64,000 nt of DNA. Source: Sphingobium sp. EM0848. GTDB lineage: Bacteria > Pseudomonadota > Alphaproteobacteria > Sphingomonadales > Sphingomonadaceae. The stretch covers positions 1,364,001-1,428,000 of the forward strand of contig NZ_JABXWB010000001.1 in the NCBI RefSeq assembly GCF_013375555.1, written 5' to 3'. Below the pieces are notes generated by a model. The model saw nothing but the letters and a program-made list of their open reading frames with translations. It did not search any database and had not been told where the DNA came from. How positions within the stretch are numbered: position 1 is the stretch's first letter; the number at the start of each line of letters is the position of its first letter. A program made the translations under genes and the position numbers. This document shows, piece by piece, positions 36,800 to 63,606 of this stretch.

Positions 36800-37972
36800 T
36801 CAGAGCCGTTCGATGATGGTGACGTTGGCCATACCGCCTGCTTCGCACATGGTTTGCAAACCGTAGCGGCCACCCCGGTCGTGGAGAGCGCTGACCAGCG
36901 TCGCCATCAGCTTCGCGCCAGACCCGCCGAGCGGATGACCGAGTGAAATCGCGCCACCGTGGACGTTGAGTTTTGCCGGGTCGGCTCCCAACGCCTGCGC
37001 CCAAGCCAGCGGGACTGGGGCGAAGGCCTCGTTGACTTCATAGAGATCGATGTCGGCGAGCTTCATGCCGGCTCTCGCCAGCGCCTTTTCCGTCGCGGGG
37101 ATCGGGGCTTCGAGCATGATGACGGGATCGTGCCCCAGCACGGTCATCTCATGGATGCGGGCGAGCGGCGTCAGGCCATGAGCCTTGAGCCCGCGTTCAT
37201 TGACCACCAGCAACGCGGCGGCACCGTCGCAAATCTGGCTGGCATTGGCGGCTGAGATCACGCCGCCCTCGGTCAGCAGCTTGACGCTGGCGATCTTTTC
37301 CAGGGTCGCGTCGAAGCGGATGCCTTCGTCGATTGTGTGGAGGACGGTTTCGCCCTCCGGGGTCACGACTTCGAGGGGGATGATTTCGGCGTCGAACTTG
37401 CCTGCCTGCGTGGCGGCGGTGGCGCGGCGGTGGCTTTCAAGCGCATAGGCGTCGAGGACTTCGCGGCTGAGGCCATATTTCTTGGCCAGCATTTCCGCGC
37501 CGCCAAACTGGCTGAAGGGCTGGTTGGGATAGCGCGCTTCGATGCCGGGGCTGCGATAAGTGCCGAAGCCATGTTTGGCGGGCAGCGTCCACGGCAGACC
37601 CATGGGTACGCGGGTCATGCTTTCGACGCCCGCTGCGATCACCACGTCCTGCACGCCGGACATGACGGTGGCGGCGGCGAAGTGCAGCGCCTGTTGCGAG
37701 GAGCCGCATTGGCGGTCGACATGGGTGCCAGGGACGGATTCCGGCAGGCCGCTGGCGAGGACGGCGTTGCGGGCGATGTTCGCGCCCTGCTCGCCACCGG
37801 GGCAGGCGCAGCCCATGATGACATCCTCGACGGCGGCGGGGTCAATCCGCGAGCGTTCGACCAGCCCTGCGAGGACTTTGCCCGCCAGATCGGCGGGGTG
37901 GACGGCGGCAAGGCGACCGCCACGCTTGCCGCCAGCGCTGCGCGCGACGGCCGCGATATAGGCTTCAGCCAT
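36800..37972 (-). CDS. Acetyl-CoA C-acyltransferase (thiolase)
   Basis: 390 residues. AGGAGA lies ahead of the ATG at 37972. Nucleophilic Cys89 in [13 protein letters not shown], the [15 protein letters not shown]-terminal segment with catalytic His, and a second Cys in [10 protein letters not shown]. It cleaves 3-ketoacyl-CoA or condenses acetyl-CoA. It follows npdG by 14 bp on the same strand, so it is the last gene of the tetR-fbiC-npdG-thiolase operon. Confidence 0.9.
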
Positions 37973-37986
37973 TTATTTTTCTCCTG

Positions 37987-38652
37987 TCAGACGCCGGTGA
38001 TGCGGATTCCGGAGCCGGGGACCTTATATTTGCGGTTGAGGGCGATGAGGACGGAGGTCAGTCCTTCGGCCACCACCGAATTGCACAACGGCCCGGCATT
38101 CCATGCACGCAGGCCAATCTCTTGCGCGAGCGCGACCACCATGTCGGCGGCTTCGCTGTCGTCGGCGCAGACGAGGACATCGCATTCAATCTCCTCATCC
38201 AGCTTGGTGAGGTGATGAGCGCTGATATTCTGGAAGGCGGAAACGACGCGCACCCCCTCGCCCAGCATCTTCTGCACGGCTTCGACGGCTGAGCCGCCTT
38301 CGGGGAGTTGCACGCGGCTGACCTTGGGCGGGACCAGAGGCACCGTCACGTCGATCAGTATCTTGCCCGCCAGCGCGGGTTCGACATCCTTCACCGTCGA
38401 TTGCTGCGCGGCATAGGGCACGGCGAGGACGACGATATCGGCCTGCGCGGCGGCTTCCGGGTTGGCGGCGCCGGTGATGGTGCCGTTGCCCAATATCTCG
38501 TTCATCTGGGCGGCGGCTTCCTGCGCGCGCTCGGCGGTGCGGCTGCCGATGATGACCTTGTGGCCCTTATGCGCCCAGCGGAGCGCGAGGCCGCCGCCTT
38601 CCTTGCCGGTGCCGCCAAGGACGGCGATGCTCGCCAGAGTGTCATTCTGCAT
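37987..38652 (-). CDS. npdG: NADPH-dependent F420 reductase (F420H2:NADP+ oxidoreductase)
   Basis: 221 residues from ATG 38652 with AGGAGA upstream; a TTG at 38658 would add two residues. NADP-binding GGTGKEGGGLALRWA at 13-27 and GSRTAERAQ (2'-phosphate pocket), LAVPYAAQQSTV, and SAFQNISAHHL match the NpdG/Fno family. It moves hydride between NADPH and coenzyme F420. It overlaps the fbiC 3' end by 11 bp and lies in the same operon. The assignment is by motif and by fbiC linkage. Confidence 0.85.
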   Translation of the reverse strand: MQNDTLASIAVLGGTGKEGGGLALRWAHKGHKVIIGSRTAERAQEAAAQMNEILGNGTITGAANPEAAAQADIVVLAVPYAAQQSTVKDVEPALAGKILIDVTVPLVPPKVSRVQLPEGGSAVEAVQKMLGEGVRVVSAFQNISAHHLTKLDEEIECDVLVCADDSEAADMVVALAQEIGLRAWNAGPLCNSVVAEGLTSVLIALNRKYKVPGSGIRITGV

Positions 38653-41035
38653 ATTCAAATCTCTCCTGTTCTTTCCGGCGTTTGCGCGGGGGCGTGAGGA
38701 TCATCGGCGTGAGTTCCTCAGCGGCCATGCCGCGGTCGTGAATGTCCTGCGTCACCGCGCCATAGGCCGTGCTGCGCTGGCGCGGGGTGCGGCTGAGCGA
38801 GCGGATCAGCGCCTCCATCGCGGCGGGCGGCATTTCCTGACCGTGCTGGGTGCCGGCGGCGCGGGAGATGCTCTCGTTCATCAGCGTGCCGCCAAGGTCG
38901 TTGGCGCCCGAAGTGAGGCAGGCCTTCACGCCCTCGGGGCCAAGCTTCACCCAACTGGTCTGGATCGAGCGGATATGCGGGTGCAGCGCGAGCCGGGCGA
39001 CGGCGTGCATCAGGCGGACTTCGCGGAAGGTCGGGCCATGGCGCGCCTCTCCGCGCAGGCCCATGGGCGCTTCCATATGGACGAAGGGCAGCGGCACGAA
39101 CTCGGTGAAACCGCCGGTGCGGCGCTGGAGGTCGCGGATGCGGATCAGGTGGCGCGCCCAATGGCGGGGGGTGTCGACATGGCCGAACATGATGGTGGCG
39201 GTGGTGGTGAAGCCGACCTTATGCGCGGTTTCGACCACCTCCAGCCATTGCTCGGTGTTGAGCTTGTCGGGGCAGATTTGCGCGCGGACTTCTTCGTCGA
39301 GGATTTCCGCCGCCGTGCCGGGAAGCGTGTCGAGGCCGGCGTCCTTCAGGCGGAGGAGGAATTGTTCGACCGTCAGGCCAAGGGTCGCGGCGCCCTGTGA
39401 CACTTCCAGCGGGGAGAAGGCGTGGATGTGCATCTCCGGCACGGCGGCGCGAACCGCTTTGGCGAGATTGATGTAAGTGTCGCCGGTATAATGGGGGTGG
39501 ATGCCGCCTTGCAGGCAGACCTCGGTGCCGCCGCGTTCCCATGCCTCGCGGGTGCGGCGGATGACTTCTTCGAGGTCGAGGTCATAGGGTTTGCCGCGCA
39601 GTTCCTCCGCCTTGTCGCCCTTGGAGAAGGCGCAGAAGCTGCATTTATAGGCGCAGATATTGGTGTAGTTGATGTTGCGGTTGACGACATAGGTGATCTC
39701 GTCACCCATCACCTGTTCGCGCAAGGCGTCGGCGCTGTCGCAAATATGTTCAAGGTCGGTTTCGCGGGCGGAGAAGAGGGTCGTGATCTCCTCCTCTGCC
39801 AGCAGTTCACCCGCCATGGCGCGCTTGACGATGGCGGCGATCTTCGGGTCGACCGGCAGGGTCGAGGGACGCGTGACGCGGGGCTCCAGCGCGATGCCCG
39901 GCGACCATCTGTCCTCGCGGGCGAAGCCCTCCGCATCGGCATGGGCGAGGATGTCGCGCACCATCGCAGCGTCCTGCCAGCGGGCATTATCCTGCGCATA
40001 GGCCGGATAGACCGGCAGGCGCGCAACCAGCATCCTCCCTTCGCCTTCGGTCGCCATGCGCAGGCGCTCGACTTCGGGCCAGGGGGCCTCAGGGTTCACA
40101 TGGTCGGGCGTGACCGGCGAGACGCCGCCCCAATCGTTGATCCCGGCCGACAGCAGGCGCGGGAAGTCAGACGCCGAGAGATTGGGCGGCGCCTGAATGT
40201 TCATCTGCGGCCCCAGGATCAGGCGGGCGGCGGCAATGGTCCAAAGCAGTTCGTCCATGTCCGGCTCAGGCGCATGGGCCATCACCGTGCGCTCCTTGGC
40301 GCGGAAATTCTGGACGATCACCTCCTGAATATGGCCGTAGCGTTCGTGCAGGTCGCGAATGGCTTTAAGCGCTTCGATCCGCTCTGCGCGGGTTTCGCCG
40401 ATGCCGATCAATATGCCGGTGGTGAAGGGAATTTGCAGTTCGCCCGCGAGGCGGATGGTTTCGAGGCGCGCCGCCGGTTCCTTGTCGGGCGAGCGGTAAT
40501 GCGCGCCGCCCTTCTGGCAGAGGCGATCGGACACGGACTCCAGCATCAGGCCTTGGCTCACCGACACGCGGCGAAGCGCGGCCATCTCCTCACGGGTCAT
40601 GACGCCTGCATTGATATGCGGCAGCAGCCCGGTTTCGTCGCGCACCAGCGCGGCCATTTCGGTGAGATAGGAGATGGTCGTGGCATGGCCGAGCCGCGCC
40701 AGTTCTTCACGGGCGGCGGCGAAGCGCAGTTCCGGCTTGTCGCCCAGCGTGAACAGCGCCTCGGTGCAGCCCGCCGCCTGGCCTGCACGGGCGACGGCCA
40801 GCACCTCCTCGCGGGTCATATAGGCGTTCTCGCCCGGACGCGGCGGCTGGGAAAAGGTGCAATAATGGCAGAGATTGCGGCAGAGCTGCGTCAGCGGGAT
40901 GAACACCTTGCGCGACCAGCTCTGAACCCGGCCATGCCCCTCATCACGCAGCCCAGAGGCCGCAAGAAGAAGATCAGGCAAGGGCGCTTCCAAAAACGCA
41001 TTCATCGCCTTTGATCCAAAAAACTCTCCAGCCAT
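38642..41035 (-). CDS. fbiC: 7,8-didemethyl-8-hydroxy-5-deazariboflavin synthase (FbiC, CofG-CofH fusion)
   Basis: 797 residues from ATG 41035 (MAGEFFGSKAMNAF); the frame to 41290 adds a non-homologous leader. Two radical SAM domains in one chain: CofG-like cluster C52-C56-C59 (CRNLCHYC), and CofH-like cluster C461-C465-C468 (CAYKCSFC). It makes the deazaflavin Fo from tyrosine and a flavin precursor, the first step of coenzyme F420. Domain order with CofG first is as in actinobacterial FbiC. No cofC, cofD or cofE lies in the window. Lies 52 bp after tetR; overlaps npdG. Confidence 0.95.
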   Translation of the reverse strand: MAGEFFGSKAMNAFLEAPLPDLLLAASGLRDEGHGRVQSWSRKVFIPLTQLCRNLCHYCTFSQPPRPGENAYMTREEVLAVARAGQAAGCTEALFTLGDKPELRFAAAREELARLGHATTISYLTEMAALVRDETGLLPHINAGVMTREEMAALRRVSVSQGLMLESVSDRLCQKGGAHYRSPDKEPAARLETIRLAGELQIPFTTGILIGIGETRAERIEALKAIRDLHERYGHIQEVIVQNFRAKERTVMAHAPEPDMDELLWTIAAARLILGPQMNIQAPPNLSASDFPRLLSAGINDWGGVSPVTPDHVNPEAPWPEVERLRMATEGEGRMLVARLPVYPAYAQDNARWQDAAMVRDILAHADAEGFAREDRWSPGIALEPRVTRPSTLPVDPKIAAIVKRAMAGELLAEEEITTLFSARETDLEHICDSADALREQVMGDEITYVVNRNINYTNICAYKCSFCAFSKGDKAEELRGKPYDLDLEEVIRRTREAWERGGTEVCLQGGIHPHYTGDTYINLAKAVRAAVPEMHIHAFSPLEVSQGAATLGLTVEQFLLRLKDAGLDTLPGTAAEILDEEVRAQICPDKLNTEQWLEVVETAHKVGFTTTATIMFGHVDTPRHWARHLIRIRDLQRRTGGFTEFVPLPFVHMEAPMGLRGEARHGPTFREVRLMHAVARLALHPHIRSIQTSWVKLGPEGVKACLTSGANDLGGTLMNESISRAAGTQHGQEMPPAAMEALIRSLSRTPRQRSTAYGAVTQDIHDRGMAAEELTPMILTPPRKRRKEQERFEYAE

Positions 41036-41087
41036 TCGTAGAATCCTATCCCATCTTCTTCTTTTTTGGCGGCAACGGGCTTTAACT

Positions 41088-41807
41088 TCAACCCACCGGG
41101 CCGGGGCGTTCAAGCCCAAAACCCTCTTTCCTGGGAATATCAGCCAACATTTCCAGCGGCAGGTCAATCGGCGCAGCCAGCAAGGCGACGAGCGATTGGG
41201 CGAAATGCTCCAGGCTCGCATCATTGCCCCACATGGGATGGTCGCGACTATGATCCACAAGGGCACGTTGCCGCGCGGACAGGACGGCACTGATATAAGC
41301 CCCCATGAACACGAAACGCTGATTTTGAATGGCCGCCGGCAGATGCGGCATCAACTTGCGCAAATGGTCGAGGCACCGGCCATAGGCGCTGTTCCATGCG
41401 GGATCGATGGCATCCAGCATCATGTCCCTGTGGGTCATGGCGAAGATGACGATGAACTGCACATAATGTTCATCCGGCAAGGCAATGACTGGGCGGATCA
41501 GGACATCGACGACCTCGCGGATCGTGCGCGGACCGCCCTGCCCCTCCAGCGAATCGAGCGCGGCATTGCGCTCCCGGTCCAGCGCTACCGCTCCGTCCAT
41601 AACGATGGCGCGGACCAGCGCTTCCTTGGACCCGAAATAATAGCCGACCGCGCCGTGATTTTTCTGGCCCGCCGCCGCCGCGATTTCTCGCACGGTCACG
41701 CCATCGACGCCCCGTTCCGCGAACAGGCGCAGGGCGACTTTCTTCAATTGCTCTGCAGCCGTGCTGCGAGCCACTTCATCGGCCTTGGCGAGTTGAAGTC
41801 TGACCAT
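41088..41807 (-). CDS. TetR family transcriptional regulator (TetR-1)
   Basis: 239 residues from ATG 41807 (MVRLQLAKADE). The frame to 41849 would overlap a palindrome that looks like its operator, so the shorter start is preferred. N-terminal helix-turn-helix (LRLFAERGVDGVTVREIAAAAG, GAVGYYFGSKEALVRAIV). It heads the leftward F420 operon and is divergent from the kinase-led operon, so it probably controls both. The ligand, perhaps a CoA ester, is unknown. Confidence 0.88.
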   Translation of the reverse strand: MVRLQLAKADEVARSTAAEQLKKVALRLFAERGVDGVTVREIAAAAGQKNHGAVGYYFGSKEALVRAIVMDGAVALDRERNAALDSLEGQGGPRTIREVVDVLIRPVIALPDEHYVQFIVIFAMTHRDMMLDAIDPAWNSAYGRCLDHLRKLMPHLPAAIQNQRFVFMGAYISAVLSARQRALVDHSRDHPMWGNDASLEHFAQSLVALLAAPIDLPLEMLADIPRKEGFGLERPGPVG

Positions 41808-41839
41808 GTGTGCATTTTTCTCATTGCCAAGCGGGTTCG

Positions 41840-41860
41840 TCAAGTGCATTATCCACTTGA
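41840..41860. promoter_or_regulatory. Candidate TetR-1 operator
   Basis: TCAAGTG-N7-CACTTGA is a perfect 7-bp inverted repeat between tetR-1 and the kinase gene, positioned to cover a promoter in both directions. An extra AAGTGG lies near 41902. Confidence 0.6.
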
Positions 41861-41904
41861 TCTAATCAACGATCCAACAGTCGAAAAAAGTGAGGGATGT
41901 CTAA

Positions 41905-42927
41905 GTGGAATCAGCGGTCGACATCGAGTCGCTGGCGGCGTGGATGACGGATCAGGGGCTTGGCTCCGGTCCGCTGACCAACGTGACGCCGCTTGCGGGA
42001 GGGACGCAGAATATCCTGCTGCGCTTCAGCCGTGACGGGCGCGATTATGTGTTCCGGCGTCCGCCTGCGCACCCCCGCCCGAACAGCAATGAGACGATGC
42101 GGCGGGAGGCTCGCGTGCTGCGTGCGCTGGCCGGGACGGCGGTGCCGCATCCGGCGCTGATCGCCGATTGTGGCGACGAGAGCGTGCTGGGCGTCGCCTT
42201 CTATCTGATGGAGCCGGTGAATGGCTTCAATCCGGTCGGGCAGTTGCCGGAACCGCATGCCAGTTCGTCGGATATGCGCCATGTCATGGGATTGGCGCTG
42301 GTGGACGGGATCGCGGCCTTGGGGGCACTGGATCATGAAGCGTTGGGCTTGGCCGATTTCGGCAAGCCGGAGAATTTTCTGGGGCGGCAGGTGGATCGCT
42401 GGCGCTCGCAACTGGCTGGCTATGCCGAATTTGATGGTTGGACGGGACCAGAGGTGCTGCCTTCGGTTGCGGCGGTCGGGGACTGGCTGGAGCGGCATCG
42501 ACCAGAGCGGTTCAAACCCGGCATCATGCATGGCGACTATCATCTCGCCAATGTGATGTATCGGCCGGATGGACCGGAGCTGGCGGCGATCATCGACTGG
42601 GAACTGGCGACGATTGGCGATCCGCTGCTGGACCTTGGCTGGGTACTCGCGACTTGGCCGGATGGAAAATCGGAAAGTACCGTATCGGTTACGCCGTGGG
42701 AGGGATTTCCGACCGCTGGTGAGTTGGTGACGCGCTATGCGGAAGGGTCGGCGCGCGATCTGTCGGCGGTTGACTGGTATCATGTGCTGGCCTGCTACAA
42801 GCTCGGCATCCTGCTGGAGGGCACTTACGCCCGCGCCTGCGCCGGGAAGGCGCCGCGCGAGACCGGCGACAAACTCCACGGCCGGGCCATTCATCTTTTC
42901 GAGCGCGCCGAAGCGCTGATCCGCTGA
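41905..42927 (+). CDS. APH-fold phosphotransferase, acyl-CoA dehydrogenase-associated (LvaA/ACAD11 kinase-like)
   Basis: 340 residues from a GTG. Aminoglycoside-phosphotransferase fold with an intact catalytic loop HGDYHLAN (H209, D211, N216) and metal-binding Asp231 in IIDWELATIGDP, plus LGWVLATW. Proteins of this type next to acyl-CoA dehydrogenases include LvaA and the N-terminal domains of ACAD10/11, known to phosphorylate the hydroxyl of 4-hydroxyacyl-CoA. First gene of the rightward operon, 22 bp before the SDR gene. The substrate is inferred. Confidence 0.85.
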   Translation: MESAVDIESLAAWMTDQGLGSGPLTNVTPLAGGTQNILLRFSRDGRDYVFRRPPAHPRPNSNETMRREARVLRALAGTAVPHPALIADCGDESVLGVAFYLMEPVNGFNPVGQLPEPHASSSDMRHVMGLALVDGIAALGALDHEALGLADFGKPENFLGRQVDRWRSQLAGYAEFDGWTGPEVLPSVAAVGDWLERHRPERFKPGIMHGDYHLANVMYRPDGPELAAIIDWELATIGDPLLDLGWVLATWPDGKSESTVSVTPWEGFPTAGELVTRYAEGSARDLSAVDWYHVLACYKLGILLEGTYARACAGKAPRETGDKLHGRAIHLFERAEALIR

Positions 42928-42949
42928 CAAATATGAGAGGGAATTTCCT

Positions 42950-43690
42950 TTGACCAACGAACTCGACTTCACCGGAAAGACGGTGCTGGTGGTCGGCGGA
43001 TCGAGCGGCATCGGCAACGGCATGGCCCAAGCCTTCCGCCAGCGCGGCGCGCAGGTCCATGTCTGGGGCACGCGAGCCAGCGCGGCGGATTATGCGGGCG
43101 AGGAAGGCTCCGATTTGGAAGGCGTCGGCTATACTCAGGTCGATGTCAGCGATGCGGCGGCGATCGCGGCGGCGCCGGTGCCTTTCGACAGGCTCGACGT
43201 GCTGATCCATTCGCAGGGGGCGGTGCTCTACCGGCGGCAGGAGTTTGAGGCCGAGGGCTGGAACAAGGTGATGGCGGTCAATCTCGACTCCATCCTTCAT
43301 ATTTCCAACCTGTGCCGGGAAGCGCTCGCCGCCGCCAAGGGATCGATCATCGTCGTCAGTTCCATCGGCGCGTTCAAGGCGACCTTCGGCAATCCCGCCT
43401 ATGCGGCGTCCAAGGCGGGCGCGGTCAATCTGGTGCGGGCGCTGGCGATTGCCTGGGCGGGCGACGGCATCCGCGTCAACGGTATCGCGCCCAGTCTGGT
43501 CGACACCAAGATGACCAAGGTGACGATGGACAATGACGAGCGACGGAACCGTGCGCTGGCGAAGATTCCGTTGGGGCGCTTCGGATCGGTCGAGGAAATG
43601 GCGGGCGTGGCGCTGTTCCTCGCTTCTCCCCTCTCCGGTTATATTTGCGGGCAGACTCTGGTCGTCGATGGCGGCCTCACGCTCACCTGA
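42950..43690 (+). CDS. Short-chain dehydrogenase/reductase
   Basis: 246 residues from a TTG (GAGAGGG ribosome site 7 nt upstream). Cofactor loop [11 protein letters not shown] at 16-26, catalytic Ser138, Tyr151 and Lys155 in YAASK. NAD(P)-linked interconversion of a ketone and an alcohol, perhaps 4-oxo/4-hydroxy acyl in this setting. Placed between the kinase and the acyl-CoA dehydrogenase. Confidence 0.9.
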
Positions 43691-43713
43691 ATTTTTCCAA
43701 GAAGGATCATCCC

Positions 43714-44940
43714 ATGGACTTCGAATATTCCGACAAGGTGAAGGCGCTGAGGGCGCAGCTCATCGATTTCATGGACGCGCATGTCTATCCGATCGAGAAG
43801 GAGCGTGACCATTTCCACCATGATCCGGCGAACCTGTGGAAGCGCTGGCCGGGAACGGAAGAGATCAAGGCCAAGGCGAAGGAAGCCGGTCTGTGGAACC
43901 TGTTCCTGCCGCATGAATATGGCGAATGGAGTCCAGGTTTAACCAATCTGGAATATGCGCCGCTGGCCGAGATCATGGGCCGCGTGATCGGGTCGTCGGA
44001 ATATTTCAACTGCTCCGCGCCGGATACGGGCAATATGGAAGTGCTGGCCCGCTATGGCACGCCGGAACAGCAGGAGAAGTGGCTGAAGCCGCTGCTCGAT
44101 GGCACGATCCGTTCCTCCTATGTGATGACGGAGCCGGAGGTCGCCTCCTCGGACGCGACCAATGTTTCCACCACCATCATCGCGGATGGTGATGATTATG
44201 TGATCAATGGCCGGAAATGGTGGATTTCGGGCGCGCTCGATCCCAATACGAAGCTGTTCATCCTGCTTGGCAAGACGCCCAATGACGGGCCGCGTCACCA
44301 GCAGCATTCGCAGATCCTCATCCCCGCCGGTACGCCCGGCATCGAGATCATCCGACCGCTCGATGTGCTGAACGCGGTGCATTCGCCCGGCGGCCATGCC
44401 GAGATGCTGTTCAAGGATGTGCGCGTGCCCAAGGCGAACCTCATTCTTGGCGAAGGGCGCGGGTTCGAGATCGCGCAGGGTCGCCTTGGGCCGGGTCGCA
44501 TCCATCACTGCATGCGGCTCATCGGGCAGGCGCAGCGGGCGCTGGAATATATGGCGCGGCGGGTGAACAACCGGGTCGCCTTCGGCCGCAAGCTCGCGGA
44601 TCAGGGGAGCATTCGGCAGGACATCGCCCTCTCCTTCTGCGAGATCGAGCAGGCGCGGTTGCTGACGCTGAAGGCCGCCGATGCGATGGACCGCTATGGC
44701 AACAAGGTCGCCAAGGACCTGATCGCCGCCATCAAGATCGTCGCTCCGCGCATGACCCAGACGGTCGCGGATCGCGCCATGCAGGTGTTTGGCGGCATCG
44801 GCATTTCGAGCGATTTCCCGCCTGCCGCCGCCTTCATGAACGCGCGTTACCTGCGCTTCGCTGATGGGCCGGACGAGGTACATATGGCGCAGCTTGGCAA
44901 GCTCAAGATCGCTGAACTCAACGAACTGCCGGTGCGGTAA
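43714..44940 (+). CDS. Acyl-CoA dehydrogenase family protein (ACAD10/11-like)
   Basis: 408 residues from ATG 43714 with AAGGA 6 nt ahead; the longer open frame from 43645 is the end of the SDR region. FAD enzyme: [54 protein letters not shown] and [10 protein letters not shown] close the active site. The alignment with the kinase two genes before suggests a phosphoryl-acyl-CoA lyase/isomerase role rather than simple dehydrogenation. Confidence 0.87.
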
Positions 44941-44946
44941 GCCGGA

Positions 44947-45022
44947 GCATCCAGCGCAAAAGTGGGAACCGGTTTTGCGCGAACCGGGATGCGGCAACGA
45001 AGACGAGAGCGCATCGCGCTCT
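44947..45022. repeat. Foldback intergenic repeat unit
   Basis: GCGCAAAA/TTTTGCGC (44954-44961 and 44973-44980) enclosed by GCATCC/GGATGC (44947-44952 and 44987-44992), then AGAGCGC-ATC-GCGCTCT (45006-45022). The sequence GCGCAAAAGTGGGAACCGG is like a repetitive extragenic palindrome found in many Alphaproteobacteria. It occupies the only large gap inside the rightward operon. Confidence 0.7.
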
Positions 45023-45041
45023 AACCGGAAAGGCGAGGATC

Positions 45042-46370: not shown

Positions 46371-47905
46371 TGTCTTTGAGCCTAAGCGGGGTCGATCCCG
46401 CGCGTCGCGACCAACTCGCCCTTGCCGATGAGCGGGTGACTTATGACTGGCACCAGTTGGACGAGTTGCTCAACCGGGCGGCCAATGCGCTGAATGGCCT
46501 TGACCTGACCGAGCGGCGGGTGGCGGTATTCGCGCCCAACAGCGCCGAGACGGTCATCGCCTATGTCGCCTGTCTGGAAGCGGGCATTTCGAGCGTGCCG
46601 GTGAGCTTTCACCTGACGCCTTCGGAGGCAGCCTATATTTTGAAGGACAGCGGTGCGGTGGCGTTGCTCGTCGGGCCGGAAACGATGGAGGCCGGGCTGG
46701 CCGCCGCCGCAGAGGCTGGCGTCAAGACGGTGATCGGCTGGCGTTGTCCGGATCGGGAGGGCGTCATCCATTGGGAAGACTGGATCGCCGCCGCTTCGAC
46801 CGATGAACCCGATCCCGAAGTGCCGCCCCTGCCGCATCTCCATTACACGTCGGGCACGACCGGGCGGCCCAAGGCGACCGAGACGCCACCCCCCTATTTT
46901 CCGCGCGTCGCTACGGTAAAGGCTCTGGCCGAAGCGATCCGGCCCAAGATCACGCCTTCGCCGGGCATTGCGGTGGGGCCGCTTTATCATACCGGGCCGC
47001 TTGGCATGGCGCGCAATGTGTTTGGCGGCATGAGCCTCATCACAGTCGAGCATTTCGACGCGGAACAGACGCTGGCGCTGATCGAGAAATATAGGGTCGC
47101 AGGCTCCGTGATGGTGCCCACCCATTTCCAGCGGATGCTGGCACTGCCCGAAGAGGTGCGCGCCAAATATGATGTGTCGAGCATCCAGCGCCTCGCCCAC
47201 ACCGGCGCGGCCTGTCCCCGTGCGGTGAAGCAGGCGATGATCGACTGGTTCGGGCCGGTGCTGGTGGAGGCCTATGGCGGGACCGAGGCGGGGTCGACCA
47301 CCTTCATCACTTCGCAGGAATGGCTGGAGCGGCCGGGGTCCGTGGGCAAGGCGCTCCCGCCCTTCCAGACGGAGATTTATGGCGAGGATGGGCAATTGCT
47401 GGGACCGAATGAGGTCGGGCAGGTCTATTTCCGCGACACCAGCGGCCATGGCATCGTCTATCGCGGCGACCCGGGAAAGACCGCCGCTGCCCATATCTCG
47501 CCGGGCGTCTTTACGCTGGGCGAGATGGGTTATGTGGATGCGGAGGGCTATCTCTTCATCACCGATCGCGTGTCGGACATGATCGTGAGCGGCGGGGTGA
47601 ACATCTATCCCGCCGAGTCCGAACATGTGCTGCTGCGCCATCCCAAGGTGGCGGACGTCGCCGTGGTCGCCGCGCCCAATGCCGAAATGGGCGAGGAAGC
47701 GCGGGCGCTGGTCATTCCCAAGGATGCGGGCGATCCGCCGACTCCGCAAGAACTCAACGCCTTCTGCCGGGCGAACCTCGCTGGTTACAAATGCCCGCGT
47801 GGCTATGAGATGGTCGACGACATCGGCCGCACCGTCATGGGCAAGGTCAATAAGAAGGCGCTGCGCCAGCGCTTCTGGCCTTCTGATCGCACCATCGGGG
47901 GTTGA
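46370..47905 (+). CDS. AMP-dependent acyl-CoA synthetase/ligase
   Basis: 511 residues from the ATG at 46370 overlapping the MFS stop. P-loop YTSGTTGRPK at 159-168, GGTEAGSTTFI, the ITDRVSDMIVSGGVNIYPAE hinge and the GKVNKKALR catalytic lysine near the C-terminus are typical. It converts a carboxylic acid to its CoA ester using ATP. It would activate the substrate for the kinase/dehydrogenase steps. Confidence 0.92.
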   Translation: MSLSLSGVDPARRDQLALADERVTYDWHQLDELLNRAANALNGLDLTERRVAVFAPNSAETVIAYVACLEAGISSVPVSFHLTPSEAAYILKDSGAVALLVGPETMEAGLAAAAEAGVKTVIGWRCPDREGVIHWEDWIAAASTDEPDPEVPPLPHLHYTSGTTGRPKATETPPPYFPRVATVKALAEAIRPKITPSPGIAVGPLYHTGPLGMARNVFGGMSLITVEHFDAEQTLALIEKYRVAGSVMVPTHFQRMLALPEEVRAKYDVSSIQRLAHTGAACPRAVKQAMIDWFGPVLVEAYGGTEAGSTTFITSQEWLERPGSVGKALPPFQTEIYGEDGQLLGPNEVGQVYFRDTSGHGIVYRGDPGKTAAAHISPGVFTLGEMGYVDAEGYLFITDRVSDMIVSGGVNIYPAESEHVLLRHPKVADVAVVAAPNAEMGEEARALVIPKDAGDPPTPQELNAFCRANLAGYKCPRGYEMVDDIGRTVMGKVNKKALRQRFWPSDRTIGG

Positions 47906-47910
47906 GCTTC

Positions 47911-49989
47911 ATGCGTTTTGTCCTGCCCTTGTTATTATTGCTCGCCGCCTGCGCGCCCTCGGGTGTGGCGAAACGCGATGGCAGCGACTGGCCCGGCTAT
48001 GGCGGCATCGATGAGAACCATTATAGCCCACTCACGCAGATCAATGATGGCAATGTCGGGAAGCTGAAGCTCGCCTGGTATCATGACATCACCAGCGGCG
48101 GGGCGAGCCTGTCCGCGCCGATCGCGGTGGACGGCATCGTCTATTATGCCTCGGGCTACAGCGTCATTCATGCGCTGGATGCCGCGACCGGGCGGGAATT
48201 GTGGACCTATGATCCGCAAAGCTGGAAGGTCGCCGGGCAGAAGATGCGCGCCGCCTGGGGCATCAGAGGCATCGCCTATGACAATGGCATGGTCTTTACC
48301 GGGACCATCGATGGCCGCCTGATCGCGATCAACGCCCGGTCCGGCCATCCCGTCTGGACCGCGCAGACCATCGGCAAGGATGACGAGCGCTATGTCACCC
48401 GCGCGCCCTGGGTGTTCAAGGGCAAGGTGATCATTGGCCATGGCGGGGCGGACTTCGCGCCGGTCCGGGGCTATGTGACCGCCTATGACCAGCAGACGGG
48501 GAAGCAGCTCTGGCGCTTCTATACCGTGCCGGGCGACCCGAAGCTGGGTTTCGAGAATAAGGCGATGGCGATGGCCGCCAAGACCTGGACCGGGCAATGG
48601 TGGAAATATGGCGGCGGCGGGACGGCCTGGAACGCCATGGCCTATGACCCCAAATATAACCGCATCTATATCGGGGTCGGCAATGGTTCTCCGTGGAACC
48701 GGAAGATCAGGTCGCCGGGGGGCGGGGACAATTTGTTCCTCTGCTCCATCGTCGCGCTGGACGCGGATACGGGCGAATATGTCTGGCATTATCAGACCAA
48801 TCCCGGCGAGACATGGGACTTCAACAGCGCGATGGATATGGAGCTGACCCGGCTCACCATCGGGGGGAAAGAGCGCGATGTGCTGATGCACGCGCCGAAG
48901 AATGGCTTTTTCTATGTGATTGACCGGGCGACGGGGAAGCTGATCTCCGCCCGCAATATCGTGCCGGTCAACTGGGCGAGCGGCATCGACATCAAGAGCG
49001 GACGGCCGATCGAAAATCCGGCGGCGCGCTATCCGGACGGAAAAGCGGCGATCGTCTACCCCTCCCCCTTCGGTGCGCATAATATCGAGGCGATGTCGTT
49101 CAATCCGGGGACGGGCCTTGTTTATATCCCGACCATGGATCAGGGCCGCGTCTATATCGACACGGCTGAACCCTTTCAGGGCTGGAAGCATCTGAATGGC
49201 CAGCGGCTCAGCACTGGCACCGGCGCGCCGCCTCCGGGCGTGGTGCCGGATCGACCCGCAACCAGCTTCCTCCTCGCCTGGAATCCGGTGACGCAGAGCG
49301 AGGCCTGGCGCGTGCCGATGCAGGGCATAAGGGGCGGCGGCGGCACGGCGACCACGGCAGGCAATCTGCTGTTTCAGGGCAATGCGGTGGGCAAGTTCGT
49401 CGCCTATGCCGCGAAAAGCGGGAAGCCGCTCTGGTCCTTCGACGCGCAGACGGCGGTGATGGCGCAGCCGATCACCTACAAGGCGCGCGGCAGGCAATAT
49501 GTGACGGTGATCGCAGGGGCACGTTTCCCCAGCGCCACCGGCACGGGGCATGAGTGGAATTACCGCACCCAACAATGGCGCGTCCTCACCTTCGCGCTAG
49601 ATGGGAAGGCTGCCTTGCCACCAGTCCAACCCGTCGAAACGCCGGTCATCGACATGCCCGATTTCGCCGTCGATCCGGCCAAAGCCACCATCGGCGCAGG
49701 CGTTTTCGGACAGCGTTGCTCCATCTGTCACGGCGCCAATGCGGTGTCGGGCGGCATGGCGCCGGACCTGCTCCAGTCGGGCGTGCCGCTGGATACCGCC
49801 AGCTTCAAGGACGTGCTGCACAAGGGCATCCTGCGCGAACGAGGCATGCCGCGCTTCGAGGAACTGACCGACGTCGAGATCGAAGGTCTGCAACATTATT
49901 TCCGCCAACGCGCCCGCGAGGTTCTGGCCGCGCAAGCCGCCGCCAGGCCGGGCGCCCAGACACATAGAGGCTTGAATGAAGGTCAATGA
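47911..49989 (+). CDS. Lipoprotein PQQ-dependent alcohol dehydrogenase with C-terminal cytochrome c (copy 1)
   Basis: 692 residues from ATG 47911. Lipobox LAAC ends an 16-residue signal (MRFVLPLLLLLAACAP), implying a membrane-anchored periplasmic protein. Eight-bladed PQQ beta-propeller with blade motifs such as AARTGxxxWxY-like WTYDPQS, DADTGEYVWHYQTNPGE and LMHAPKNGFFYVIDRATGKL. C-terminal haem motif CSICH at 603-607. The vicinal Cys-Cys common in these enzymes is replaced: AAWGIRGIAY. Probable catalytic Asp in GGGDN. Oxidises an alcohol and passes electrons to cytochromes. Confidence 0.9.
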   Translation: MRFVLPLLLLLAACAPSGVAKRDGSDWPGYGGIDENHYSPLTQINDGNVGKLKLAWYHDITSGGASLSAPIAVDGIVYYASGYSVIHALDAATGRELWTYDPQSWKVAGQKMRAAWGIRGIAYDNGMVFTGTIDGRLIAINARSGHPVWTAQTIGKDDERYVTRAPWVFKGKVIIGHGGADFAPVRGYVTAYDQQTGKQLWRFYTVPGDPKLGFENKAMAMAAKTWTGQWWKYGGGGTAWNAMAYDPKYNRIYIGVGNGSPWNRKIRSPGGGDNLFLCSIVALDADTGEYVWHYQTNPGETWDFNSAMDMELTRLTIGGKERDVLMHAPKNGFFYVIDRATGKLISARNIVPVNWASGIDIKSGRPIENPAARYPDGKAAIVYPSPFGAHNIEAMSFNPGTGLVYIPTMDQGRVYIDTAEPFQGWKHLNGQRLSTGTGAPPPGVVPDRPATSFLLAWNPVTQSEAWRVPMQGIRGGGGTATTAGNLLFQGNAVGKFVAYAAKSGKPLWSFDAQTAVMAQPITYKARGRQYVTVIAGARFPSATGTGHEWNYRTQQWRVLTFALDGKAALPPVQPVETPVIDMPDFAVDPAKATIGAGVFGQRCSICHGANAVSGGMAPDLLQSGVPLDTASFKDVLHKGILRERGMPRFEELTDVEIEGLQHYFRQRAREVLAAQAAARPGAQTHRGLNEGQ

Positions 49990-52051
49990 CGTCGTCACCT
50001 ATGAGGTGGAAGGCCCCATCGCGGTCATCACGGTCAACTCGCCGCCGGTGAACGCGCTTTCCAATGCCGTGCGGCAGGGCGTCGCGGGCGCGGTACAGAC
50101 CGCCATCGGCGACAGCAGCGTGGGCGCGATGGTGCTGATCTGCGAGGGGCGCACCTTCTTCGCCGGGGCGGACATCACCGAATTCGGCAAGCCGCCTGTC
50201 GAGCCGACCCTGCGCAACCTCCAACTGGTCGTGGAGAACGCCACCAAGCCAGTGATCGCCGCCATCCATGGCACGGCGCTGGGCGGCGGGCTGGAACTGG
50301 CGCTGGTGGCCCATTATCGCATTGCCGTGCCTTCGGCCAAATGCGGGCTGCCGGAGGTGAATCTCGGCCTGCTGCCGGGCGCCGGCGGCACGCAGCGTTT
50401 GCCGCGCATCGTCGGGGTCGAAAAGGCGCTGGATCTCATCACCTCCGGCGCGCCGGTCGGGGCAAAGGCCGCGAAGGAGATGGGGCTGGTCGATGAACTG
50501 GCGGCAGAGGGCAATCTGCGCGCCGACGCCATCGCCTTTGCGAACCGAGTGCTGGAGGAAAAGTGCCCCTTGCTCAAGGTCCGCGACCGCACCGAAAAGC
50601 TGGACGAAGCACGCGGCAAGCCGGAAATCTTCGCGGATTTCAGAAAGGCCAATGCCAAGAAATTCCGCGGCTTCAACGCTCCAGAAGCAATCATCCGCTG
50701 CATCGAGGGGGCGCTGGAAAAGCCCTTTGACGAGGGCATGGTCTATGAGCGCCAGTTGTTCAATGAACTTCAGGAAGACAGCCAGTCCGCCGCCCAGCGT
50801 CATGTCTTCTTCGCGGAGCGGCAGGCGGCCAAGATTGACGGCATTCCCGCCGACACGCCCGCTCTGCCCATCGCCAGGGTCGGCGTGATCGGCGCGGGCA
50901 CCATGGGCGGCGGCATCGCGATGAACTTCGCCAATGTCGGCATCCCCGTGACCCTTGTGGAGACGAATGAGGAGGCTCTGTTCCGGGGCCTGCGCATCAT
51001 TCGCGGCAATTATGAAACCACCGCGAAGAAGGGCAGGATGAAGCCCGAGGATGTCGATACCCGCATGGGCCTGCTGACCGGCTCTGTCGCGATGGAGGAT
51101 CTGGCCGACTGCGACCTCATCATCGAGGCGGTTTTCGAGAATCTCGACGTCAAGCGCGAAGTGTTCGGCAAGCTCGACAGGATAGCCAAGCCCGGCGCGA
51201 TCCTCGCCACCAACACCAGCTATCTCGACATTGACGACATCGCCGTCGCCACTTCCCGGCCGGAGAGCGTCTGCGGCCTGCACTTCTTCTCACCCGCCAA
51301 TGTGATGAAACTGCTGGAAGTGGTCCGCACCAAGGATACGAAACCCGAAATCACCGTCACCGCCATGAAACTCGCCAAGACCATCGGCAAGATCGGCGTG
51401 CTGGTGGGCAATGGCTTTGGCTTTGTCGGCAACCGCATCCTTGCTGCGCGCAACACGCAGGCGGACCTGCTGGTGCTGGAGGGCGCAACGCCATGGGCCG
51501 TGGACAAGATACTCTATGACTTCGGCTTTGCCATGGGGCATTTCCAGATGCGCGATCTGGTGGGGCTCGACGTCGGCTGGACCCGCGAGGCGACCAGTTC
51601 CGCCAATGTGCGGGAAATCCTCAATGAAATGGGCCGCCATGGGCAGAAAACAAAGGGCGGCTATTATGACTATGACGAGAACCGCAAGCAGACGCCCTCC
51701 CCCATCGCCATGCAGGTTATCGAGGATTTCGCTGCCAAGCAGGGCATCGCCCGGCGCGAGGTGAGCGACGCAGAAATCCACGACCGCATCCTCTTCGCCA
51801 TGGTGAATGAGGGTGCGCGTATTCTTGATGAAGGCATCGCGTCACGGGCGTCGGATATCGATATCGTCTGGATCACCGGTTACGGCTGGCCGAAATATCG
51901 TGGCGGCCCGATGTTCTGGGCGGATTTGCAGGGCCTCCCGACCGTACTCGAAAAGCTGAAGGCGCTCGAAGCCACCCATGGCGAGGCATTCAAGCCCTCC
52001 CCATTGATCGAACGGCTGGTGGCCAAGGGCAAGGGGTTCAAGGACGCATGA
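49976..52051 (+). CDS. FadB-type enoyl-CoA hydratase/3-hydroxyacyl-CoA dehydrogenase fusion
   Basis: 691 residues, start overlapping the PQQ gene by 14 bp. N-terminal crotonase domain ([35 protein letters not shown]), middle Rossmann motif [14 protein letters not shown] near residue 302, then the 3-hydroxyacyl-CoA dehydrogenase C-terminal part with [14 protein letters not shown] and GFVGNRIL. Two central beta-oxidation steps on one chain. It overlaps the next gene by 4 bp. Confidence 0.93.
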
Positions 52052-53199
52052 TCAGAGGAAACCGCATCGCCATCACCGGGGTCGGTGAAACGCCCTTCCT
52101 GCGCAAAGGCGAGGAAGGAGTCATGAAGATGATGACCCGCGCCAGCCTCGCGGCGATTGCCGATGCGGGCCTGACGCCGAAGGACATCGACGGCTATATC
52201 TCCAACAAATATGCGGGGCATGGGTCGGACGAGGTCGCCTTTGCGATAGGAGCGGGCGAGAAGCGTTTCTGCGCCACCACCGACAGCGTCGGCGGCACGG
52301 CCACTTCGGGGCAGGCGCTGCAACTGGCGCAAATGGCGATCGAGGCGGGTCTGGCGCGGCATGTGTTGGTGCCCTATGCGATCCAGTCGACCAAGCCCGG
52401 CGGCGTCTATGGCTTCCATGCGCGCGAGCCGCAGAAGGCCGGGATCGAAATGCCGGTCGGCTTCTTCGGCCAGCCCACCTATTTCGCGAGCATGGCGAAC
52501 CGCTATGCCCATGAATATGGCATGACGGAAGAGGAGCAGGCCGCGATCCCCATGACCTATCGGGCCTGGGCGGTGCTGACGCCGAGCGCGCAGCGGCGCG
52601 ATCCGATGGATTTGGAAGCCTATCGCCAGTCGCCGATGATCTCGACGCCATTGCGGGCGGCGGATTGCTGCCTCACCACCGATGGCGGCGGCGCCTATGT
52701 GGTGAGCGCCATTGAGGAAGCGCGCGACATGCCCCATCCCGTGGTGAGCGTGCAGGGGCTGGGACTAGGCTTCAACAACTGGCCGCAGGGGGTGCTGTTC
52801 ACCCAGACGCCCTGCACCTACGACTTTCCCGGCGAGGTATCGGCGAAACTGGCCTATGCCATGGCGGGCTGCGATCCCAAGGACTTGGACCTGGCGCAAA
52901 TCTATGACGGCTTCACCATCTCAGCGCTGGTGCAGACCGAGATGCTGGGCCTGTGCGAGCGGGGCGAAGGGCCGCGCTTCTATGCAGCAGGGCATGGGAT
53001 GCCGGGCGGACGAATGCCGATCAACACCAGCGGCGGGCATATGTCGGGCGGCTATGTGCCCGGCATGAACCTGCTGATCGAGGCGGTGCGGCAGTTGCGT
53101 GGGCAGGAAGGCGAGCGGCAGGTGCCGGACGCGAAGCTCTGCGCCGTGGCCGGGCTGGGCGGCAACAATCATTCCACCACCATTTTGGCGCGGAGCTGA
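52048..53199 (+). CDS. Thiolase-like lipid-transfer (SCP-x/Ltp2-like) protein, probable aldolase
   Basis: 383 residues. Thiolase fold with C-terminal NTSGGHMSGGYVPGMNLLIEAVRQLRG as in SCP-x/Ltp2 proteins, but the segment around TDSVGGTATSGQALQLAQMAI lacks the nucleophilic Cys expected in NCxTG of true thiolases. With a DUF35 partner directly behind, it resembles the Ltp2-type retro-aldolases of steroid side-chain degradation. Whether it is an aldolase or a thiolase is inference. Overlaps the FadB gene by 4 bp. Confidence 0.75.
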   Translation: MIRGNRIAITGVGETPFLRKGEEGVMKMMTRASLAAIADAGLTPKDIDGYISNKYAGHGSDEVAFAIGAGEKRFCATTDSVGGTATSGQALQLAQMAIEAGLARHVLVPYAIQSTKPGGVYGFHAREPQKAGIEMPVGFFGQPTYFASMANRYAHEYGMTEEEQAAIPMTYRAWAVLTPSAQRRDPMDLEAYRQSPMISTPLRAADCCLTTDGGGAYVVSAIEEARDMPHPVVSVQGLGLGFNNWPQGVLFTQTPCTYDFPGEVSAKLAYAMAGCDPKDLDLAQIYDGFTISALVQTEMLGLCERGEGPRFYAAGHGMPGGRMPINTSGGHMSGGYVPGMNLLIEAVRQLRGQEGERQVPDAKLCAVAGLGGNNHSTTILARS

Positions 53200-53202
53200 T
53201 CC

Positions 53203-53619
53203 ATGGGCATTCCGGTTTACCCTCCCAAGATCGAGGACCCGCTGTTCCAGGGCTATTATGACGGACTGGAAGCGGGCGAACTGCGCATCACCGCCGATGC
53301 CGAGACGGGCGAATGGATTTGGTATCCGCCCGAAGTCATCCCCGGAAAGCCCGACGCCGTGCTGGAATGGCGCCCGGTTTCGGTAGAGGGCTGCGCCTAC
53401 ACCTTCACCACCGTCATCCGCAGCCTGCTGCCCGGCGATCACAAGGCGGAAGTACCCTTCACCGTGGTCCTGTTCGAACCGGATGACGCGCCGGGCGTGC
53501 GCGTGCCGGGGCTATTGGTCGAAGCCGAGGGAATGGAACCGCGCTGCGGGATGCGGTTGAGGTTTCAACCGGTGCAGGCGGGGGACCACAAGATTGCAGG
53601 CTTCGCGCCCATTGGTTGA
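53203..53619 (+). CDS. DUF35 OB-fold partner of the thiolase-like protein
   Basis: 138 residues, ATG 3 nt after the preceding stop. The EWRPVSVEGCAYTFTTV and PGDHKAEVPFTVVLFE segments are of the OB domain of DUF35 proteins. The usual zinc-ribbon cysteines at about residues 25-50 are replaced (DAETG, GKPDA), so zinc is probably not bound. Partners stabilise or complete the active site of lipid-transfer thiolase-like proteins. Confidence 0.78.
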   Translation: MGIPVYPPKIEDPLFQGYYDGLEAGELRITADAETGEWIWYPPEVIPGKPDAVLEWRPVSVEGCAYTFTTVIRSLLPGDHKAEVPFTVVLFEPDDAPGVRVPGLLVEAEGMEPRCGMRLRFQPVQAGDHKIAGFAPIG

Positions 53620-53629
53620 GGAACCTGTC

Positions 53630-54667
53630 ATGGAAATGGGCCGCCGCGAGCTTTTGGTGAGCGGGATGGCCATGGCCCTTGCCGGTTGCGCGGGATCGGG
53701 AGGGATCGGCCAGCCCTCGCCGCCCAAACCGCTCAGCGTCACCGACTTCACGCTGGTCCGGGGCAATCTGGACGCGCCCGAGGGCATAGCGAGCAGCCCC
53801 GACGGCCGCCTGTTCGTCTCCAATGGCGGCGGCGCCATCGGCGTGCTGGAACATGACGGCACCCTCCGCCAGATCGGCAAGGCGCTCGCCCCCAATGGCG
53901 TCGCGGTCGACCGCGAAGGCCGCGTCATCGTCGCCAATATGGGCCTGCTCAACAAGGGGCCGGGTCCGCTGCAGCGGATCGACGTCGCGACGGGCACGGT
54001 CGAAACACTGGTTTCGGAACTGGAGGGCCGGCAACTGGTCGCCTCCAACGGCCCGGCAACGGCGCGCAATGGCGATATCTACTGCACGCACAGCACATGG
54101 GGACCGATCGGCAATATCGGCACGACCACAGCGTCGGGCTTTATCTACAGGTGCGCGCCCGACGGCCATGCGTCCATTGTCGCCCGTGATCTACGCGGGG
54201 TGAACGGTCTCTGCCTCGATCGGGAAGAGCGCCATGTCTATGCCTCCCTGACCGCCGAAGGACGCATCCGGCGCTGGCGGCGGCAAGCGGATGGGTCACT
54301 TACCGATCCACAGGATTATGGCCCGCAACTGGGCGTGGTGGCGCCCGATCAACAGGCGAAGGACATTCGCGCCATGCCTGCATCGGAACGCGCGGACCTT
54401 GGCTATTGCGACGGTATCGCGTTCGATCAGGCGGGCAATCTCTGGGTAACGCTGCCCTTCGCAAACCGGATCGTTGCCATTACGCCGGACGGCCGGAAGG
54501 TGGAGATTGCGCATGATTCTGAAGGAAAAATGCTCTCCAGCCCGACCAATCTGTGCTGGGGCGGGGCGGACCTGCGCGATCTTTATATTGTCTCACGGGC
54601 GAGCGGGATGGTGGTCAAGGCCCGAACGGATGTCGCGGGCCTGCCGTTGGCGAACTGGCCAGGCTAA
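53630..54667 (+). CDS. SMP-30/gluconolactonase-like lipoprotein
   Basis: 345 residues from ATG 53630 (GAGGAAC 5-6 nt ahead). A lipobox LAGC in MAMALAGCAGSGG implies a lipoprotein, with a twin-Arg-like RRELLVSGM start. Six-bladed propeller typical of SMP-30/strictosidine synthase-like proteins: GIASSPDGRLFVSNGGG, GVNGLCLDREERHVYASLT, CDGIAFDQAGNLWV. Probable periplasmic lactonase. Last gene of the rightward operon, convergent with an NTF2-like gene 7 bp away. Confidence 0.82.
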   Translation: MEMGRRELLVSGMAMALAGCAGSGGIGQPSPPKPLSVTDFTLVRGNLDAPEGIASSPDGRLFVSNGGGAIGVLEHDGTLRQIGKALAPNGVAVDREGRVIVANMGLLNKGPGPLQRIDVATGTVETLVSELEGRQLVASNGPATARNGDIYCTHSTWGPIGNIGTTTASGFIYRCAPDGHASIVARDLRGVNGLCLDREERHVYASLTAEGRIRRWRRQADGSLTDPQDYGPQLGVVAPDQQAKDIRAMPASERADLGYCDGIAFDQAGNLWVTLPFANRIVAITPDGRKVEIAHDSEGKMLSSPTNLCWGGADLRDLYIVSRASGMVVKARTDVAGLPLANWPG

Positions 54668-55319: not shown

Positions 55320-55321
55320 GC

Positions 55322-58756: not shown

Positions 58757-58876
58757 CTCATCACTCCTATGGCGGGTCATGCCCGCTGCCTTTTTACGGA
58801 ATTATCTTTATGGCTTCACATCGTTCGACGGATCGAAAAATGCTCTCATATGCAGGAAACACCAGTTTGATCCTCA

Positions 58877-63431: not shown

Positions 63432-63476
63432 GGGTTTCATCCTCTTTCTTCGGCGCGCATGGCCGGCGCAGCCTTT

Positions 63477-63496
63477 TATTGCACCATCGTGCAATA
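63477..63496. promoter_or_regulatory. Palindromic operator between the PQQ dehydrogenase and hydratase genes
   Basis: TATTGCAC-CATC-GTGCAATA is a perfect 8-bp inverted repeat (TTGCA-N6-TGCAA core). A matching half-site TATTGCAC lies at 63552-63559. It can act on both divergent genes. Confidence 0.65.
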
Positions 63497-63606
63497 TTAT
63501 GCCGTTGTCAACGCGTCTCCTCAATTGACAGGGCCAGCTTTGCAGATTTAATATTGCACCAAAGATCATATTTTAGGAGCAGGGCCGTGAAACGCAGGGG
63601 AAGGCG

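Follow-up and report, generated by a model that had tools for sequence, protein, structure and literature searches.

Sphingobium sp. EM0848 carries two coenzyme F420 genes, fbiC and npdG, back to back with a ten-gene catabolic operon, and a TetR regulator gene (tetR1) lies between the two arms of this divergon. The stretch analysed ("the window") is 64,000 nucleotides long (assembly GCF_013375555.1, contig NZ_JABXWB010000001.1, positions 1,364,001 to 1,428,000 of the forward strand), and coordinates below follow its own numbering. We suggest, with a probability of about two in three, that the divergon provides F420, on induction by a substrate, to a sphingomonad pathway not described before, encoded by a catabolic "supercluster" which carries its own source of the cofactor. 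Since relatives keep the F420–catabolic arrangement, the cofactor is probably made only when the food of the pathway, a hydroxylated organic acid, is present; this co-regulation we infer from gene arrangement.

The leftward arm (minus strand) is composed of tetR1, fbiC, npdG and a thiolase gene, in this order. tetR1 (41088..41807; TetR_N and TetR_C_30 domains) has an open frame to 41849, and its start is probably the ATG at 41807 because EM0848 shares ATGGT(C/T)AG with two related genomes (G201 and G011, see below). The fused CofG-CofH gene fbiC (38642..41005; open frame to 41290, probable start ATG 41005) encodes a protein matching the CofGH model NF006687 with 1141 bits (cut-off 1018) as well as TIGR03550 and TIGR03551, and its two CX3CX2C radical SAM clusters are found at residues 42 and 451 of the 787-residue form. 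It is the single fbiC match in the genome (5.64 Mb, five contigs). npdG (37987..38658), whose frame as listed overlaps that of fbiC by 17 bases, encodes an NADPH:F420 oxidoreductase (TIGR01915, 231 bits, cut-off 149.8; GxGxxG motif). The last gene of the arm, thiolaseA (36800..37972), belongs to the acetyl-CoA C-acyltransferases (NF005077, 697 bits, cut-off 590), and in Sphingobium scionense DSM 19371, Novosphingobium sediminicola DSM 27057 and Novosphingobium sp. SG707 an ortholog closes the F420 operon at its distal end. A preliminary description had reported fbiC, with both radical SAM clusters intact, and npdG in one leftward operon that also includes tetR1 and a thiolase and is divergent from the ten-gene operon; this gene content and its coordinates are confirmed.

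That description also named the absence of any cofD or cofE homologue as one observation which should overturn it. This objection fails because the genome does have both genes, along with cofC: cofE-cofD-cofC lie at G000:C1:2654658-2656923, about 1.25 Mb from the divergon on the same contig, and their products exceed the cut-offs of PF01996, PF01933 and PF01983. The gene set for F420 synthesis is therefore complete as read from the genome, and F420 production itself is predicted. CofE, CofD and CofC are only 36–54% identical to those of S. scionense, N. sediminicola, SG707 and Sphingomonas sp. 67-36, hence EM0848 uses a diverged set.

The preliminary description proposed that F420 supply is switched on together with the pathway; this interpretation is partly supported, and comparative data from relatives strengthen it. 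Genomes are denoted here by handles (G000 is that of EM0848), the family set comprised 397 genomes, and fbiC was scored as present at E below 1e-60, which was the case in 57 of the 397. Apart from the fbiC of EM0848, the list comprised 69 matches; we examined the gene surroundings of 40 of these, and later of six more, and scanned genome contigs with an alignment of four acyl-CoA dehydrogenases (ACADs), taking the best 80 loci, from which the relatives called by name originate. In seven other genomes fbiC stands opposite the same catabolic operon. In G201 (L037), G212 (L039) and G133 (L040), fbiC-npdG is divergent from the same operon of kinase, short-chain dehydrogenase (SDR) and ACAD genes, npdG being followed in G201 by cofE, cofD and cofC; S. 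scionense, N. sediminicola and SG707 have tetR1-fbiC-npdG-cofE-cofD-cofC-thiolase in this position, and the metagenome-assembled genome of Sphingomonas sp. 67-36 has fbiC-npdG-cofE-cofD-cofC. The genes for CofC, CofD and CofE are thus on the same arm as fbiC in five genomes (S. scionense, N. sediminicola, SG707, Sphingomonas sp. 67-36 and G201).

The cluster was recognised in 17 genomes (G000, G011, G084, G133, G156, G201, G206, G212, G296, G308, G320, G362 and G397–G401), all of which encode fbiC. F420 genes occur in or beside the cluster in 13 of them: on the cluster contig itself in 11 (G000, G084, G133, G201, G212, G320, G362 and G397–G400), and on short contigs in G206, beside the double CoA-transferase gene, and G308, beside the tetR1 end. 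No F420 genes were found in the cluster stretches examined of G011, G156, G296 and G401, where fbiC is located elsewhere in the genome; the G156 contig (C161) starts at the double CoA-transferase, so F420 genes may yet adjoin its cluster, and G296 and G401 have clusters that are incomplete or deviate.

An ACAD ortholog of at least 77% identity, a cut picked after the gap between 77 and 73% had been seen, was detected in 11 genomes, all among the 57 fbiC-positive ones of 397 (hypergeometric 2e-10), and the association persists by genus (8/8 versus 27/96, p 1.7e-5), ancestry being ignored in both calculations. The fbiC tree is less dependent on ancestry than such counts. Among 53 fbiC proteins, those of nine cluster genomes group in one clade, with G331, G143, G088 and G114, and those of G206, G084, G320 and G362, with G156, form part of a distant clade. 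Forcing the 13 cluster fbiC together was rejected (approximately unbiased test, p-AU 7.5e-6), as was a wider set of 18 rows chosen after the tree had been seen (5.5e-6). The 16 cluster ACADs fall into one clade (support 100/99) with one G201 paralog inside, in a tree for which 32 loci were given and L185 yielded no row. With a single ACAD clade linked to two fbiC lineages, the F420 genes met the cluster at least twice, or were exchanged.

The region between the arms has been conserved as well. The perfect palindrome announced by the preliminary description, TCAAGTG-N7-CACTTGA, does exist at 41840–41860 (no strand assigned), but it is not the conserved feature: its left arm is kept in relatives and its right arm is not, and since the window holds 67 inverted repeats with 7-bp arms and spacers of 0–9 bp, the palindrome alone is weak evidence. 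What is common to nine divergons (G000, S. scionense, N. sediminicola, SG707, G201, G011, G212, Sphingomonas sp. 67-36 and G133) is a core, GTCAAGTGCATTATCCA, at 41839..41855 (no strand assigned), which has one exact match in the genome and reads from 41839 on as the block GTCAAG-N-G(C/A)AT(T/A)ATC. In three of these divergons (G212, G133 and Sphingomonas sp. 67-36) the leftward arm starts directly with fbiC. A genome scan with the pattern GTCAAGYGNATTATCCA returned one exact match, in the divergon, and seven more at one or two mismatches versus four for the reversed control. Of these seven (one with a single mismatch, six with two), the one-mismatch site was inspected as a second operator and rejected, since it falls inside an RND-type transporter gene as read from the sequence.

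Within the core, CATTAT can serve as a rightward -10 box, with TTGCCA 17 bp upstream, and TTGAC on the other strand as a leftward -35 box; CAT(T/A)AT sits 17 bp past TTGC(C/A)(A/T) in eight of the nine divergons, which makes a fair -10/-35 pair for the right arm. The core is presumed to be the overlap of the -10 of the rightward and the -35 of the leftward promoter and the target region of TetR1. With a TetR gene between divergent operons and a conserved core overlapping both presumed promoters, it is our candidate operator. Two further divergons of tetR1-like and kinase genes (G095 and G340, in stretches without F420 genes) contain an exact palindrome TTATCCA-NN-TGGATAA, whose left half, TTATCCA, persists in the window with NN-TGA after it. 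We infer that TetR1 binds near TTATCCA, a few bases to the right of the axis proposed in the preliminary description.

The rightward operon (41905–54667, plus strand) consists of ten genes, beginning with a kinase and ending with an SMP-30-type protein. The kinase (41905..42927) has the APH fold of the LvaA/ACAD11 kinase-domain type (PF01636; HGD..N motif), matching in the PDB the single-domain kinases 3dxp (152 bits) and 9o56 (147 bits) and then ACAD11 (8v3v, 96 bits). It is followed by the SDR (42950..43690; PF13561), which holds the place of LvaD in the lva operon, and by an ACAD10/11-type dehydrogenase (43714..44940) predicted, from PDB matches and residues, to act by elimination on 4-phosphoacyl-CoA. 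The ACAD matches the putative ACAD 4hr3 (408 bits) and ACAD11 (2wbi, 404 bits), the next kind of ACAD scoring 142 bits, and possesses R257, R262, HCMR at 265–268 and D384. HCMR is present in 15 of 16 cluster ACADs (HAMR in G401), and the catalytic Asp, as DGPDE, in all 16. The ACAD11 structure paper links these residues (HCMR, the upstream Arg and the Asp) to 4-phosphoacyl-CoA (PMC12440821). Both marks of an ACAD10/11 pair that were tested for, the ACAD motif residues and an adjacent APH-type kinase with HGD..N, were found.

Further along the operon are an MFS transporter (45102..46370; PF07690), an acyl-CoA ligase in an LvaE-like place (46367..47905; PF00501; the true start may be downstream), an alcohol dehydrogenase of the pyrroloquinoline quinone (PQQ) type with a cytochrome c domain (47902..49989; TIGR03075, 503 bits, cut-off 480; PF13442), a FadJ-like enoyl-CoA hydratase/3-hydroxyacyl-CoA dehydrogenase (49976..52051), an SCP2-thiolase resembling lipid-transfer proteins (52048..53199; closest PDB entry 6ok1, 185 bits), a DUF35/ChsH2-type OB-fold partner (53203..53619; PF01796 at 21.4 bits, under the cut-off of 27.1) and an SMP-30/gluconolactonase-like protein (53594..54667; PF08450). 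The DUF35 gene adjoins that of the SCP2-thiolase in most cluster maps, although it was not called in G133. The "CoA-ester catabolic operon" of the preliminary description stands as a ten-gene operon but is not a generic one, since it holds an LvaA/LvaC-type (ACAD10/11-type) pair, predicted to act on 4-hydroxyacyl-CoA.

With its kinase and ACAD forming a split ACAD10/11, the right arm probably handles 4-hydroxyacyl-CoA, and this predicted step of the pathway is well supported, given the ACAD match and residues, the kinase match and the lva-like arrangement with CoA ligase and SDR. As for the substrate, the SCP2/DUF35 pair and the pimeloyl-type ACAD pairs suggest a side chain or an alicyclic acid, and no more. 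A sulfatase gene (PF00884, L040:13684-16002) lies beside the G133 cluster and a 65% relative in the G296 cluster (L161:3031 on), hinting at a sulfated substrate.

As the gene maps read, sphingomonads have a catabolic supercluster of about 45 kb, and the divergon makes up one end of it. On the minus strand of the window it is followed by module B, which includes a SnoaL-like protein (54675..55325; PF13577; beside the next gene in most cluster maps), a luciferase-like monooxygenase (LLM), probably FMN-dependent by its PDB profile and EHH motif (55322..56329), a double family III CoA-transferase with two PF02515 stretches in one chain (56360..58780; relatives in most cluster maps), a flavin reductase-like protein, FlavR (58908..59561; PF01613; PDB 4z85 and 3bpk), an enoyl-CoA hydratase (59575..60384; PF00378), the module's regulator tetR2 (60510..61250; PF00440) and a second PQQ alcohol dehydrogenase (61383..63569; PF01011). 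Module C comprises paired ACADs, a CurA-type reductase, CoA-transferases, a thiolase, an SDR and a hydratase, with a P450 and ferredoxin in some genomes. The divergon is placed between modules B and C in S. scionense, N. sediminicola and SG707; in G320, G362 and G084 the modules are contiguous, and fbiC-npdG (in two of them also cofE) heads module C. The maps were drawn with our own codon-usage gene finder, so that starts and small genes should be taken as approximate; in Sphingomonas sp. 67-36 it missed the kinase gene, which was read by eye.

Which enzyme consumes the reduced cofactor was sought among LLMs and FDOR proteins. With the TIGR03619 model (cut-off 166.9), LLM7 of G201 scores 201.1 bits, LLM6 of G011 (L044) 168.6 and LLM6 of EM0848 159.6, just under the cut-off. 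In G212 and G201, LLM7 lies downstream of the F420 genes on the same strand, and G308 encodes it on a contig that also bears cluster genes; as a universal client it was rejected, close orthologs (82–100% identity) occurring only in G201, G308 and G212 of the 17 genomes searched. LLM6, which immediately precedes fbiC in six loci (L044–L049), was rejected for the same role since, among cluster genomes, it was not found in G397–G400, G201, G308, G212 and G156. In EM0848, LLM6 (G000:C5:1701869-1702741; L132:1474-2349, plus strand; L155), a near-TIGR03619 protein, is encoded behind a protein of the old-yellow-enzyme type, and a second ACAD gene (57% identity to that of the window) is a few genes away. 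The genome also has one FDOR-A/F420H2-dependent quinone reductase family protein (G000:C5:19032-19358; L324:9024-9464, minus strand; PF04075, 130 bits), which adjoins other CoA-ester genes; a table of the 2021 review lists the FDOR group for Actinobacteria and Chloroflexi (PMC8498797). FDOR-A was rejected as a universal client because just 5 of the 17 cluster genomes gave a match. Sphingomonas sp. 67-36 has five LLMs, of which the window LLM, an MsnO8-type and the L125 type are shared with EM0848, and no L125 relative was found among the fetched loci of G397–G399; this speaks against a further universal LLM among the places compared, which were the 30 with a locus of the 42 LLM places in four genomes. 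No F420-type candidate is common to all cluster genomes. Either different lineages employ different clients, or the enzyme in question is not recognised as F420-dependent. Sphingomonad F420 gene clusters often adjoin LLMs of differing types (L041–L049, L061 and L071), and F420 may for this reason have been recruited to several pathways in the family.

Several observations weigh against a substrate-inducible F420 supply for this pathway. No F420-dependent enzyme could be assigned within the 64-kb window: by profile, the window LLM is nearest in the PDB to luciferase alpha (92 bits), F420 enzymes scoring 27 bits or less. Neither of the F420-type LLM6 and LLM7 has an ortholog in S. scionense, N. 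sediminicola, SG707 and Sphingomonas sp. 67-36. Relatives of fbiC (76–93% identity) occur in G331, G143, G114 and G088 without the ten-gene operon in the 10–20 kb examined, and the co-occurrence counts are not independent of ancestry. The cofE-cofD-cofC genes of EM0848 lie outside the divergon, and a search of the 680 bases upstream of them gave nothing resembling an operator. The conserved core may be a promoter and not an operator; G011, one of the nine core divergons, lacks an F420 gene there, and upstream of the kinase gene in G320, G362, G084 and G156 no core was found even at five mismatches, so that control must differ in these genomes.

In a rival reading the F420 genes are passengers, inherited in a shared block beside the catabolic operon, and the cofactor serves unrelated enzymes such as LLM6 and the FDOR-A protein on contig C5. 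The F420-type candidates of EM0848 indeed sit on another contig, LLM6 (E below 1e-75) occurs in 17 of 397 genomes, all fbiC-positive (hypergeometric 5e-16, ancestry ignored), without being beside a listed fbiC in 11 of these 17, and four of the 17 cluster genomes have fbiC outside the cluster stretches examined. We nevertheless regard passengers as unlikely, given two fbiC lineages joined to the same cluster, the full F420 set on the left arm in five genomes and fbiC in every cluster genome. The most far-reaching reading, also unlikely, is that the whole biosynthetic set with its charging enzyme forms an on-demand, substrate-induced regulon of an undescribed 4-hydroxyacyl-CoA supercluster and that F420H2 goes to a client so far unknown as an F420 user, such as the luciferase-type LLM plus flavin reductase.

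A client within the window, the LLM or FlavR taking hydride from F420H2, would be compatible with an inducible supply and would provide its missing step. The LLM was found in 13 of the 17 cluster genomes, the widest spread of the LLMs examined; all but G401 were searched, G201 and G308 lack it but have LLM7, and G206 gave no match. It stands one gene from fbiC in G320, G362 and G084, and at E below 1e-70 marks 10 of 397 genomes, all fbiC-positive (hypergeometric 2e-9, ancestry ignored). On the other side, its nearest solved relatives are luciferases, it has the EHH motif and 85.6 bits with TIGR03619 (cut-off 166.9), and the proteins that FlavR resembles are a nitroreductase and a component of a flavin reductase, which leaves this client quite improbable. 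On the same grounds of profile, motif and score the window LLM is not favoured as an F420 enzyme and is kept as a rival only; its single-sequence structure prediction (mean pLDDT 40.2) was not used.

If the F420 supply is substrate-inducible, the following scheme can be proposed. TetR1 would bind the conserved core and block both arms until an acyl-CoA or acid of the pathway releases it. The right arm would import and activate the acid and reduce or phosphorylate its 4-oxygen; phosphate elimination would give an enoyl-CoA, with beta-oxidation and side-chain cleavage to follow. FbiC would make Fo at the same time, CofC, CofD and CofE (encoded elsewhere in EM0848) would complete F420, and NpdG would charge it with hydride from NADPH. 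The F420H2 might then be used by a reductase of the same pathway, possibly the F420-type LLM7 in G212 and G201, and in EM0848 an enzyme not recognised as such or not linked. With F420 synthesis repressed until a particular substrate appears, trace levels would be expected in ordinary media, and such a supply could explain the traces of F420 in two other Alphaproteobacteria. To find a proteobacterial F420 client, the cluster would then offer a pathway with its regulator and promoter region as well as strains known by name, and it would place ACAD10/11 chemistry in a bacterial setting beyond levulinate.

Among known systems, the lva operon of Pseudomonas putida and mammalian ACAD10/ACAD11 likewise combine a kinase with an ACAD, and lva also has a CoA ligase beside the pair (PMC12440821, PMC11342911). 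The SDR LvaD belongs to that operon as well. R626, R631, HCMR and the catalytic Asp of ACAD10/ACAD11 have equivalents in the window ACAD (PMC12440821). Unlike lva, the pair here belongs to a far larger cluster (PQQ dehydrogenases, FadJ-like protein, SCP2-thiolase/DUF35, lactonase-like protein and LLM, plus a P450 in certain relatives), and F420 genes run divergently from it. The Ltp2-ChsH2 complex is a steroid side-chain aldolase. The pairing of SCP2-thiolase with a DUF35/OB-fold protein is the same in this aldolase (PDB 6ok1), the likeness being one of sequence only.

In the npd clusters for picrate and 2,4-dinitrophenol, npdG supplies F420H2 to a catabolic cluster, and an F420H2-dependent LLM hydride transferase acts in the pathway. 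To our knowledge, fbiC is not part of them. A catabolic cluster containing npdG is thus shared; the differences are that F420 biosynthesis itself is in the cluster here and that no F420H2-dependent LLM hydride transferase was recognised in the window. The 2021 review names npd clusters for Rhodococcus and Nocardioides, reports F420 only in traces in two Alphaproteobacteria and states that experiments on F420 enzymes in such bacteria outside Actinobacteria were lacking (PMC8498797). Among the matches listed for the open-licence literature (titles and abstract beginnings), no paper addressed F420 in sphingomonads or an F420 operon under a catabolic regulator. Other Alphaproteobacteria, according to that review (PMC8498797), have F420 genes with an NADPH-linked F420 reductase (Fno), as does EM0848; unlike them, its F420 genes appear to be tied to a specific regulator and a specific pathway.

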